From the NCBI GenBank assembly GCA_017886375.1, contig JAGGNB010000113.1:1-64000 (forward strand): 64,000 nt of DNA, written 5' to 3'. The DNA is from Octadecabacter sp. (GTDB lineage Bacteria > Pseudomonadota > Alphaproteobacteria > Rhodobacterales > Rhodobacteraceae). Numbering within the stretch: position 1 is the first letter of the stretch; the number at the start of each line of letters is the position of its first letter. Positions 43,054 through 46,796 of this stretch are shown here, one piece after another. The position numbers were made by a program, and so were the translations under genes. The notes beneath the pieces were generated by a model. The model did no database searches. It was not told the origin of the DNA and was given only the letters and a program-made list of their open reading frames with translations.

Positions 43054-44121
43054 ATGTCTGACTTCAAATCTATTGATACTGCGCAATGTCCAGCACATGC
43101 GCCCGCCGATCACCCAAAAATGATGCCTGCAAAAGTTGGCGTTCTGCTGGCGAACCTCGGCACACCGGATGGGACCGACTATTGGTCCATGCGGCGCTAC
43201 TTAGGTGAATTCCTGAGCGATAAGCGCGTTGTGGACTATTCTGCATGGGTTTGGCAGCCACTGTTACAACTGGTGATCTTGACGAAACGTCCCTTTACCA
43301 GTGGTGCTGCCTATAAGAGCATCTGGAACGAAGAAGCCAACGAAAGCCCGCTTTTGACAATTACCAAACAGCAAACAGCGGCCATGAAGGACCAATTGAA
43401 AGCCGTGTACGGCGAAGATGTGATCGTCGATTTCTGCATGCGTTACGGCAACCCATCGACAGAAGTTAAGGTAAAAGAGATGATCGCGGCTGGATGCCAA
43501 AAGATCCTCTTTTTCCCGCTATATCCGCATTATGCCGGCGCAACGTCTGCCACTGCCAATGACCAGTTCTTTCGCGTCCTGATGAAAGAAAAATGGCAGC
43601 CCATCGCACGTATCGTTGAGCCATATTTTGAAGATGACGCCTATATCGACGCGCTCGCGCAATCGATTGAGACAGCATACGCAAAAGCCGACACAAAGCC
43701 CGAAGTCTTGGTCTGTTCGTACCACGGCGTTCCGGAGAGGTACCTGCGCGAGGGTGATCCTTATCATTGCCAATGTCAGAAAACGACACGCCTGCTAAAA
43801 GAGCGGCTGGGTTGGGACGACAGCCAGATTATCACCACATTCCAAAGCCGATTCGGTCCTGAAAAATGGCTACAGCCCTACACTGTCGAAGAAGTCGCGC
43901 GATTGGCAGAAAAGGGTCGAACAAACATCGCCGTCTGCGCGCCTGCGTTTTCCGCCGACTGCATCGAAACCTTGGAAGAAATCAACGAAGAGATCAAAGA
44001 GAGCTTTGAGCATGCAGGTGGCGAACACTTCACGTACATTCCATGCCTAAATGATAGCCCGGCACACATTGATGCGCTGTCCGGCATCGTTCGGCGCAAT
44101 TTACAGGGCTGGATCGACTAG
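43054..44121 (+). CDS. hemH: Ferrochelatase
   Basis: KVGVLLANLGTPDGTDYWSMRRYLGEFLSDKRVVD, CSYHGVPERYLREGDPYHCQCQKT. Confidence 0.96.
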   Translation: MSDFKSIDTAQCPAHAPADHPKMMPAKVGVLLANLGTPDGTDYWSMRRYLGEFLSDKRVVDYSAWVWQPLLQLVILTKRPFTSGAAYKSIWNEEANESPLLTITKQQTAAMKDQLKAVYGEDVIVDFCMRYGNPSTEVKVKEMIAAGCQKILFFPLYPHYAGATSATANDQFFRVLMKEKWQPIARIVEPYFEDDAYIDALAQSIETAYAKADTKPEVLVCSYHGVPERYLREGDPYHCQCQKTTRLLKERLGWDDSQIITTFQSRFGPEKWLQPYTVEEVARLAEKGRTNIAVCAPAFSADCIETLEEINEEIKESFEHAGGEHFTYIPCLNDSPAHIDALSGIVRRNLQGWID

Positions 44122-44157
44122 GTCCAATCGCCTATTGAATCCTGCCCCAAAACAAAA

Positions 44158-44179
44158 GGCCGCCCCCGAAGGAGCGGCC
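44158..44179. terminator. Terminator hairpin at 3' end of small-protein copy 1 (also downstream of hemH)
   Basis: GGCCGCCCCCGAAGGAGCGGCC, minus-strand T-rich tail (CTTTTGTTTT). Confidence 0.75.
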
Positions 44180-44206
44180 CTTTGCATCGTAATTGAAGTG
44201 TAAGGC

Positions 44207-44398
44207 TTAGTCAGCCAAAGCAGCAGCAATCAAAACAACCAAGATCAGTGGAATGATCAGGCCTGCGGAAGAAGAAGAACCAGCGGTCTCTTCCATAACG
44301 ACAACAGGTGCCATTTCCATTACTGGCTCAGCCATGTTACCAGCGAAAGCAGTAGAAGCGGCGCCAGCGAATGCAGCAGCAAGTGCGAATTTTTTCAT
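44207..44398 (-). CDS. 63-aa secreted/membrane small protein, copy 1
   Basis: MKKFALAAAFAGAASTAFAGNMAEPVMEMAPVVVMEETAGSSSSAGLIIPLILVVLIAAALAD; signal peptide plus C-terminal TM. Confidence 0.85.
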   Translation of the reverse strand: MKKFALAAAFAGAASTAFAGNMAEPVMEMAPVVVMEETAGSSSSAGLIIPLILVVLIAAALAD

Positions 44399-44597
44399 TT
44401 TATTTCTCCAGTTGATGGCCCACGGCGAAGTCGGTGAGGCGTTAGCTATGGACGCTTAATTTAGTCCTCAGGCAACAAAAAACCACGAAATCGGCTCAAA
44501 AGCAAATCCAGAGTCAAGCATCGCGAGTCCATTTTGGTAGCCGATGCGCTATGGACACAACTGCCACGGTACCAAAAAGGCCCCTGAAAAATGAAAA

Positions 44598-44619
44598 GGC
44601 CGCCCCCGAAAGGACGGCC
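44598..44619. terminator. Terminator hairpin at 3' end of small-protein copy 2
   Basis: GGCCGCCCCCGAAAGGACGGCC followed by minus-strand T-rich sequence. Confidence 0.75.
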
Positions 44620-44646
44620 TTTTGCATCGTAATTGAAGTGTAAGGC

Positions 44647-44838
44647 TTAGTCAGCCAAAGCAGCAGCAATCAAAACAACCAAGATCAGTGGAATGATCAG
44701 GCCTGCGGAAGAAGAAGAACCAGCGGTCTCTTCCATAACGACAACAGGTGCCATTTCCATTACTGGCTCAGCCATGTTACCAGCGAAAGCAGTAGAAGCG
44801 GCGCCAGCGAATGCAGCAGCAAGTGCGAATTTTTTCAT
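44647..44838 (-). CDS. 63-aa secreted/membrane small protein, copy 2 (start trimmed from 44895)
   Basis: Protein and coding DNA identical to copy 1 at 44207..44398. Confidence 0.85.
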   Translation of the reverse strand: MKKFALAAAFAGAASTAFAGNMAEPVMEMAPVVVMEETAGSSSSAGLIIPLILVVLIAAALAD

Positions 44839-44987
44839 TTTATTTCTCCAAGTTATTGCCCACGGCAAAATTAGTGAGGTGTAAGCCATGGGCACCCAAG
44901 ACTTCCCTCTTCGATTCCCAAATCACGAATACACATCCATTGCAAAGATATAAGTAGGTAAAGCGCCACAACTTCGGCGCGATGTCG

Positions 44988-45535
44988 TCAAATCAGCAAC
45001 ACTTGTGTGCCAACATCTGTCATCCTGAAGAGTTCGGAAATGTGCTCATTGCAAAGGCCAATGCAGCCGTTTGACGAACGACGTCCGATTTTGCATGTGT
45101 CGTGGGTGCCATAAATCCGTTAGTAGGTCCAAGACAAATAAAGTGCGTGCGTTCCAAGCGGGTTATCTGCGCCAGGGCCAACAAATTCAGGCCATTCGGG
45201 GTTTCTCTCAAGCATTGACGGTGTCGGGCGCCAGCTTGTTCCTTCAACCCTACGCACAACTTCTGTGCAGCCTTTTCGGGTCAAGTCAGCGGTCAGCGGC
45301 ACGGACGTTGGGTCTGAATTTCAATAGTGTAGCGCACGCGACTGGATATCAACGAGGATCGCGCCGCCGTTAAGATTGCTAAAGTATGGCTGCCAGTCAA
45401 GTATCTGGAAACTCGACACATTCCGGATGATCGTTTGGAAAATGTCATTCTCAATCTCAGTCGTATTTTCAGTTTGTGCGACAGCACCCGTGCCGATGGT
45501 GGCAGCGGATGTGACCAAAAAGTACGACGGTTGAG
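44988..45535 (-). pseudogene. L,D-transpeptidase (YkuD/ErfK type) pseudogene
   Basis: One frame reads RNVSSFQILDWQPYFSNLNGGAILVDIQSRALHY*NSDPTSVPLTADLTRKGCTEVVRRVEGTSWRPTPSMLERNPEWPEFVGPGADNPLGTHALYLSWTY*RIYGTHDTCKIGRRSSNGCIGLCNEHISELFRMTDVGTQVLLI*; stops at 45321-45323 and 45120-45122; probable 1-nt frameshift near 45518. Confidence 0.85.
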
Positions 45536-45721
45536 TGTGCTAAAGGTAGATTTTGTAATGGGTCTATACCCCATTCAGTTTCATAAAATCACATGCCTGA
45601 TATGATGCATTTATCGCGCTAACAAATCAGACTGATGATATTTGGGCCGCTTCACGCCGATGTGGGTTTGAAACGTAACGCCTGAGCGGGTATGGCAAAA
45701 GAAATCGATAAGGGTTCTCAT

Positions 45722-46282
45722 ATGCTTCGTCGTTCATTTATTCTTGGTTCTTTGGCCTTTGGTCTGGCTGCCTGTGGTGGCGCGCCTGTGGCGACGATCG
45801 GCCCTGACGGGCTCCCGCTGCCACAAGTCTACCGAATTGGGCCGCAAGACGCCGATGACATCCAGTTCCGTATGCTTGACGGGTTAAATGCACTGCGCGA
45901 CGCCTCTGGTGCCCAACCGGTACGGCCAAACGCACAATTGAACGCCGCAGCAGCAACGCATTCCCGCGATATGTCCGTGCAAAACCGCCCTTGGCATTTT
46001 GGCTCTGATGGATCGTCCCCAATCGATCGCCTACGGCGCGTCGGCTACAGCGGGTCCTTGACCGGCGAAACCATTTCCGAAACCTATGAGACCGAACTTG
46101 AAACGCTCGGCGCGTGGATGCGCCAGCCCGACACGCGGGCTGTTCTGCTGGATACCGATGCAACGGACATGGGTATTGCTTGGTTCCAGGAAGGCAACGG
46201 AAAGATTTGGTGGACGTTGGTTATGGCCGATTCAAACCGGCGCGGGATCATCGCGCAAGAAAATCCCATCCCTTTGCAATAA
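45722..46282 (+). CDS. CAP-domain (SCP/PR1-like) lipoprotein
   Basis: MLRRSFILGSLAFGLAACGG lipobox; LNAAAATHSRDMSVQNRPWHFGSDGSSPIDRLRRVGYSGSLTGETISE. Confidence 0.85.
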   Translation: MLRRSFILGSLAFGLAACGGAPVATIGPDGLPLPQVYRIGPQDADDIQFRMLDGLNALRDASGAQPVRPNAQLNAAAATHSRDMSVQNRPWHFGSDGSSPIDRLRRVGYSGSLTGETISETYETELETLGAWMRQPDTRAVLLDTDATDMGIAWFQEGNGKIWWTLVMADSNRRGIIAQENPIPLQ

Positions 46283-46304: not shown

Positions 46305-46796
46305 CTAGGCGTACATGAAAATTGGCGTTCCGACATTTACCATCGCATAGATGTCTTCCATCTCACGGTCCTTCACGGCAAGACAACCAGCCGTCCAATC
46401 ATCGCGATTGAGCGATGGTCGAGGTGTTCCGTGGATAAAGATGTCCCCACCAGGTGACTTACCCATCGCATGGGCGCGGGCGCGGTCTGCGGCGTTCGGG
46501 TACGAAATACCGATCGACAGGTAGAAACTGCTGTTTGGATTTTTACGGTCGATATAATACGCACCTTCCGGTGTCCGCCCATCGCCTTCGACTTCCTTAT
46601 GACCAGATGGCGCGAAGCCAAGTTCAAAGTCATACTGCTCAAGCACCTTGTTGTTGTTCAATAGGAACATCTTTCGGCGACCCTTTTGAACCACGACACT
46701 GGTCACGGCAGGTCCAGTATAGACACGAAACTTGTTTGAACAGGCCGTCAGGGCAAAAAGTGCCGCAATGCTGGTGAATGTTCTTCGGTTCATCAT
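46305..46796 (-). CDS. L,D-transpeptidase family protein (YafK-like), intact, lipobox-like signal
   Basis: RRTFTSIAALFALTACSN; GDGRTPEGAYYIDRKNPNSSFYLSIGISYPN; GDIFIHGTPRP; DDWTAGCLAVKDREMEDIY. Confidence 0.88.
   Translation of the reverse strand: MMNRRTFTSIAALFALTACSNKFRVYTGPAVTSVVVQKGRRKMFLLNNNKVLEQYDFELGFAPSGHKEVEGDGRTPEGAYYIDRKNPNSSFYLSIGISYPNAADRARAHAMGKSPGGDIFIHGTPRPSLNRDDWTAGCLAVKDREMEDIYAMVNVGTPIFMYA

Follow-up and report, generated by a model that had tools for sequence, protein, structure and literature searches.

A tandem pair of small-protein genes beside hemH in Octadecabacter sp.: an old duplication whose coding core was very probably re-homogenised by gene conversion

The process closest to the case described here is gene conversion, or concerted evolution, of tandem paralogs: as in that process, an identical core lies within older copy-specific flanks and appears to have been homogenised after the split of lineages, whereas the present case concerns the gene of a tiny protein and what looks like a single event in one lineage. 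The product of the gene invites comparison with other systems. Among Peptidase_S74 (intramolecular chaperone) proteins, three paralogs in genomes G030, G010 and G001 share the N-terminal membrane module (S74 domain above the Pfam cut-off in two of them and just below it in one), whereas the protein studied here stops after the membrane helix. The E. coli proteins YjbE/GfcA, encoded in group 4 capsule operons, are similar in having a signal peptide, a Ser-rich stretch and a hydrophobic segment, and the yjbH–yjbF operons of Rhodobacteraceae also hold a small secreted protein, sometimes in tandem; the present gene, however, lies by hemH, outside any such operon. PufQ of Rhodobacter, a small membrane protein, acts on ferrochelatase (PMC5725709). 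The gene studied here adjoins hemH and encodes a predicted small membrane protein too, but it is convergent with hemH, has its own terminator, and its family has paralogs by lon, amtB or DUF502-type genes. Structured 5′ leaders and cis-regulatory RNAs in Rfam resemble the region in front of the gene, where a short covarying hairpin with conserved unpaired blocks immediately precedes a single gene, with a promoter-like region on one side and the RBS on the other; however, its copies in the window reach no family's gathering score (Rfam 15; best 25 bits against a cut-off of 45). Literature searches returned nothing on the small-protein gene or its leader.

The analyzed DNA, hereafter the window, is a stretch of 64,000 bp from Octadecabacter sp., a bacterium of sea-ice type (contig JAGGNB010000113.1, assembly GCA_017886375.1). 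The pair and its neighbour occupy the following positions:

43054–44121, plus strand: hemH, which we take to be the ferrochelatase gene; convergent neighbour, used to fix orthology
44153–44183, minus strand: terminator-like hairpin of copy 1 (seen in the sequence; not flagged by the consensus scan)
44181–44410, minus strand: putatively homogenised tract of copy 1 (RBS, CDS and 3′UTR to the terminator)
44207–44398, minus strand: copy 1, hemH-proximal ORF of a predicted small membrane protein of 63 aa
44594–44623, minus strand: intrinsic terminator of copy 2 (consensus scan)
44621–44850, minus strand: putatively homogenised tract of copy 2
44647–44838, minus strand: copy 2, hemH-distal 63-aa ORF, identical to copy 1

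Copy 1 (W1) adjoins hemH in convergent orientation, and copy 2 (W2) lies farther off. The two are identical over 230 bp at a period of 440 bp, with a mismatch at the very next base at both ends; it should be noted that the assembly, in 225 contigs and 90% complete, may have collapsed one or two genuine differences between them, which limits the reading "exactly 100%". The identical tract contains the RBS, the 63-aa ORF and the 3′UTR as far as the terminator, and the terminator hairpins of the two copies differ, so that in these points an earlier note made from the sequence was exact. The same note had limited the likeness upstream of the tract to about 40 bp with many changes; the changes are there, but the similarity extends nearer to 60 bp (75% identity), with background beyond. 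Taken as whole 300-bp ungapped families, the copies have 94% identity at a spacing of 440. Between W1 and W2, 18 of the 52 gap-free columns of the 5′ flank differ, while the core shows no difference in 230 (Fisher p ~4 × 10−15). No third copy of the 230 bp was found in the 3.26-Mb genome (225 contigs, 89.95% complete).

Comparison of copy number and identity in relatives, which the earlier note had proposed as a check, revealed two copies in genome G015, one intact copy with a decayed proximal relic in G007, and a single copy in G006; most relatives have one hemH-linked copy. G015 was the nearest relative compared, with a hemH product 98% identical to that of the window, and both of its gene copies lie beside hemH in the same order. 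Compared copy by copy, its flanks correspond to those of the window at 91% in the distal block and at 94% in the proximal block with hemH, and in the 5′ flank 15 of 52 columns distinguish the proximal from the distal copy alike in both species (pattern ABAB). Since G015 has both copies, each with flanks orthologous to those of its counterpart in the window, the duplication is, on this comparison, older than the split of the window lineage from G015, and the decayed proximal copy of G007 likewise indicates that it is old. The earlier note had named a very recent duplication of a shorter unit in relatives as speaking against its reading. In the form of a short tandem unit copied very recently, the flanks having no relation to each other, this alternative would suit the perfect core identity; it is nevertheless scarcely credible, being excluded by the orthologous copies of G015 with the same 15 diagnostic flank sites and contradicted by the decayed copy of G007. 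The copies of G015 are 2.6 kb apart, with elements between them (L038, 2613–4890) which we take from their ORFs to be of IS200-like and IS66-like types, and between the two insertions the distal unit's terminator and spacer can still be made out. These insertions cut the proximal copy off from its former upstream sequence.

The history of the core was analyzed in a four-way alignment of W1, W2 and the proximal (A1) and distal (A2) copies of G015. Site patterns in the core, in the order W1, W2, A1, A2, comprised 0 ABAB, 29 AABA, 7 AAAB, 6 AABC and 2 AABB; thus W1 equals W2 throughout, 29 sites single out A1, 7 single out A2, and 8 split the window pair from the G015 pair. The contrast of 15 ABAB sites in the 5′ flank with none in the core is significant (Fisher p ~1.5 × 10−12). 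With G006 as the outgroup, a single-copy genome that may never have had the duplication or may have lost one copy, alignment columns 126, 135, 136 and 147 are substitutions of the window lineage, and they are present in both window copies. The absence of ABAB sites from the core, together with these shared substitutions, indicates that the core was homogenised after the split; had the last homogenisation occurred at or before it, the probability of 0 differences in 230 would be ~2 × 10−7. Within the tract, paralogs are more alike than orthologs, synonymous sites included, and the ends of the tract are sharp. A tree of the short CDS was poorly resolved. The window core differs from A2 at 15 sites and from A1 at 37, and this greater closeness to the distal copy makes a distal-to-proximal direction of conversion the most likely one. 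Recombination between the copies, that is, gene conversion, would be the simplest process. It was therefore concluded with considerable confidence that an old tandem duplication beside hemH had its core re-homogenised later, in the window lineage, by inter-copy gene conversion. The gene conversion that the earlier note had suggested is thus supported by the copy-specific flanks in G015, the identical window cores and the window-lineage substitutions common to both copies, and the locus offers an unusually clean and polarised example of the homogenisation of a small bacterial protein's gene, in which both ends of the tract can be placed to the single base.

An assembly artefact, in which the collapse or copying of a repeat node during short-read assembly made different copies look identical, was considered unlikely. 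The genome is fragmented and MAG-like (225 contigs, 89.95% complete), and a repeat of 230 bp can be longer than a short read; however, the flanks on either side of both copies have in-order orthologues in G015 (3 contigs), which makes the two-copy path real, and a core like the proximal one of G015, with 18% of differences, would not be merged by an assembler, so that there is room only for the collapse of a few SNPs. Homologous recombination in which another cell supplied the replacement for the proximal copy is still less probable, and we consider it very unlikely: DNA exchange is assumed among the plastic genomes of Octadecabacter (PMC3646047), but the core matches the resident distal copy exactly, window-lineage sites included, and an intragenomic donor is therefore simpler. 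Gene conversion between the resident copies remained the preferred reading.

The tract is preceded in both copies by a putative structured leader, which lies downstream of a decayed gene in the case of copy 2:

44396–44478, minus strand: degenerate 5′ leader RNA of copy 1, arms 44445–44454 and 44417–44426 (covariance model 51.7 bits, E = 4 × 10−11; in the training set)
44836–44918, minus strand: 5′ leader RNA of copy 2, arms 44885–44894 and 44857–44866 (covariance model 83.3 bits, E = 8 × 10−19; in the training set)
44988–45590, minus strand: putative decayed YkuD-like (L,D-transpeptidase) pseudogene upstream of copy 2 (interrupted frame ending in NGCIGLCNEHISELFRMTDVGTQVLLI and a stop)

The leader is ~70 nt long and consists, in order, of ACGAGGUAAGUCUUGGGUGC, a stem of ~10 pairs, a loop often containing CCUC, the 3′ arm, GCAAUAACUGGAGG and the start codon. 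Among 33 sequences aligned with plain MAFFT, standard pairs made up 80.5% of the pair cells, 8 of the 10 pairs changed on both sides, and 38 cells with two-sided changes were counted versus 15.4 in shuffles (0 of 500). A second alignment, of 24 model matches, 23 of which were not used in model building, gave 93.9% paired cells and 42 two-sided changes versus 14.2 (0 of 500 shuffles), although its fit to the model biases this alignment in the model's favour. Slid controls were paired at 38–46% in the 33-sequence alignment and at most 53% overall. The leader of copy 1 has two non-standard pairs; most of its stem is kept, and the UCUUGGG block is lost. The flank that the earlier note described as diverged is part of this leader, the covariation pointing to a structure under a constraint of its own.

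The covariance model had matches in 76 of 150 Rhodobacteraceae genomes, normally one in each; two matches were found only in the genome of the window and in G028. Downstream of all 30 leader loci inspected was an ORF of the same family, and hemH was close by in 27 of them. As the same small gene follows in each case, the leader may be autoregulatory rather than a metabolite riboswitch. GAGG or GAGA occurred near the 5′ end of the leader in 57 of 57 sequences, and 36 of these also had CCTC in their middle part (10.2 expected); although not universal, this is suggestive of a pseudoknot between the 5′ GAGG and the CCUC of the loop. Before the leader, an arrangement TTTGCAWT ... CTTAGA suggests a promoter, and TTGCA is visible in nearly all aligned rows; a sigma-70 consensus scan of the region found no promoter. 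The hairpin would probably control translation or mRNA of the small-protein gene, a role to which its position and covariation point. Conserved across much of Rhodobacteraceae, the leader is a candidate new RNA family, apparently undescribed. We incline, with little more than even confidence, to the reading that it is an undescribed class of cis-regulatory RNA controlling a one-per-genome small envelope protein, and that conversion refreshed the coding part only; such a class could be protein-binding or ligand-sensing, perhaps with the GAGG/CCUC loop pseudoknot. If true, its control of the envelope protein would extend to about half of the sampled Rhodobacteraceae genomes. In any event, a covarying leader and a promoter-like block precede an uncharacterised family of small membrane proteins in many Rhodobacteraceae, and the presence of the leader in culturable genera such as Cereibacter and Loktanella makes its regulation and function directly testable.

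Upstream of the distal copy lie two boxes, TTGCA and, 46 bp before it, TTGACG; both are missing from the proximal copy in the window and in G015. The TTGACG box was considered as an operator and set aside, as it is perhaps just the stop-codon context of the YkuD-like gene upstream. Pfam gave no match for the pseudogene at 44988–45590; beyond it lie a CAP-domain gene (45692–46282) and an intact YkuD gene (46305–46796).

The earlier note had offered strong dosage constraint as the alternative to gene conversion. Purifying selection or dosage constraint keeping the copies identical without recombination would agree with the good conservation of the protein family in the genus; however, W1 and W2 have no codon differences at all, whereas W2 differs from A2 by 6 synonymous and 3 nonsynonymous codons, so that each window copy has 6 synonymous codons separating it from A2 and none separating it from the other. 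Selection on dosage or on the amino acid sequence was rejected because neither can equalise synonymous sites. Moreover, relatives are single-copy or have a decayed second copy, and most genomes have one leader unit. Together with the lost upstream boxes of the proximal copy, these data leave dosage constraint unsupported, and its probability is negligible. Instead, the proximal copy looks like a decaying duplicate with its coding part refreshed.

A mechanism can be proposed for gene conversion at this locus. The ancestral unit would have been a self-contained cassette of ~440 bp, comprising the promoter region, structured leader, RBS, 63-aa ORF and terminator, which was duplicated in tandem beside hemH long ago. 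In the window lineage, conversion would then have run, most likely, from the intact distal copy 2 to the decaying proximal copy 1, through RecA-type recombination between repeats in which short blocks close to either end of the gene were already identical. A1 and A2 do have identical blocks near the gene start and end, and blocks of this type could seed pairing. The coding part of the duplicate would thereby have been refreshed and its leader left to diverge. Because the upstream boxes and leader of the proximal copy are degenerate, we infer that it may be weakly or differently expressed.

The window protein has a signal-peptide-like start, an acidic and Ser-rich linker and a C-terminal hydrophobic helix (residues 46–62, hydropathy 2.98). 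Pfam gave a sub-threshold match to DUF3377 only, and NCBIfam gave no match. From these features, the product is presumably a small membrane protein of the Sec type with predicted membrane anchoring, belonging to a Rhodobacteraceae family that has no name, probably a Sec-exported, C-terminally anchored small envelope protein; that it is oligomeric is a tentative working guess. A profile of the hemH-linked proteins without the signal peptide scored 31–68 bits on paralogs linked to lon, DUF502-type genes and amtB and on the N-termini of the S74 proteins (shuffles ≤ 11.4); the names lon, amtB and DUF502 are our assumption from reading the sequences of these neighbours rather than from a family search. 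The S74 domain is absent from the window protein, and none was found in its genome. Fusions of this membrane module with a Peptidase_S74 domain occur in L036 (1965–2393, minus strand), L081 and L083; that of L036 stands at the end of a tandem array of six genes.

A link to YjbE and the capsule was considered and not adopted: the profile–profile probability of 97.9% between hemH-linked and yjb-linked proteins was due for the most part to the signal peptide. Once this was trimmed, E. coli YjbE scored −5.1 bits against the hemH-linked profile, indicating no homology, and the yjb-linked small proteins were recognised only doubtfully. A separate small gene follows yjbF in the genome of the window. 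Small secreted proteins directly after yjbH–yjbF operons were also observed in L105 (2099–2320), L100 (2086/2472), L107 (826/1221), L087 and L031; they are placed like E. coli yjbE and are sometimes tandem pairs, the likeness being positional.

Other tandem pairs at hemH were found in G008, G028, L055 and L072, along with six tandem copies in G030 and a triple linked to lon in Loktanella; among those compared, CDS identity was 50–94%. In the triple, from Loktanella sp. IMCC34160 (L069, 3001–3722), three tandem paralogs lie beside lon at a spacing of ~250 bp.
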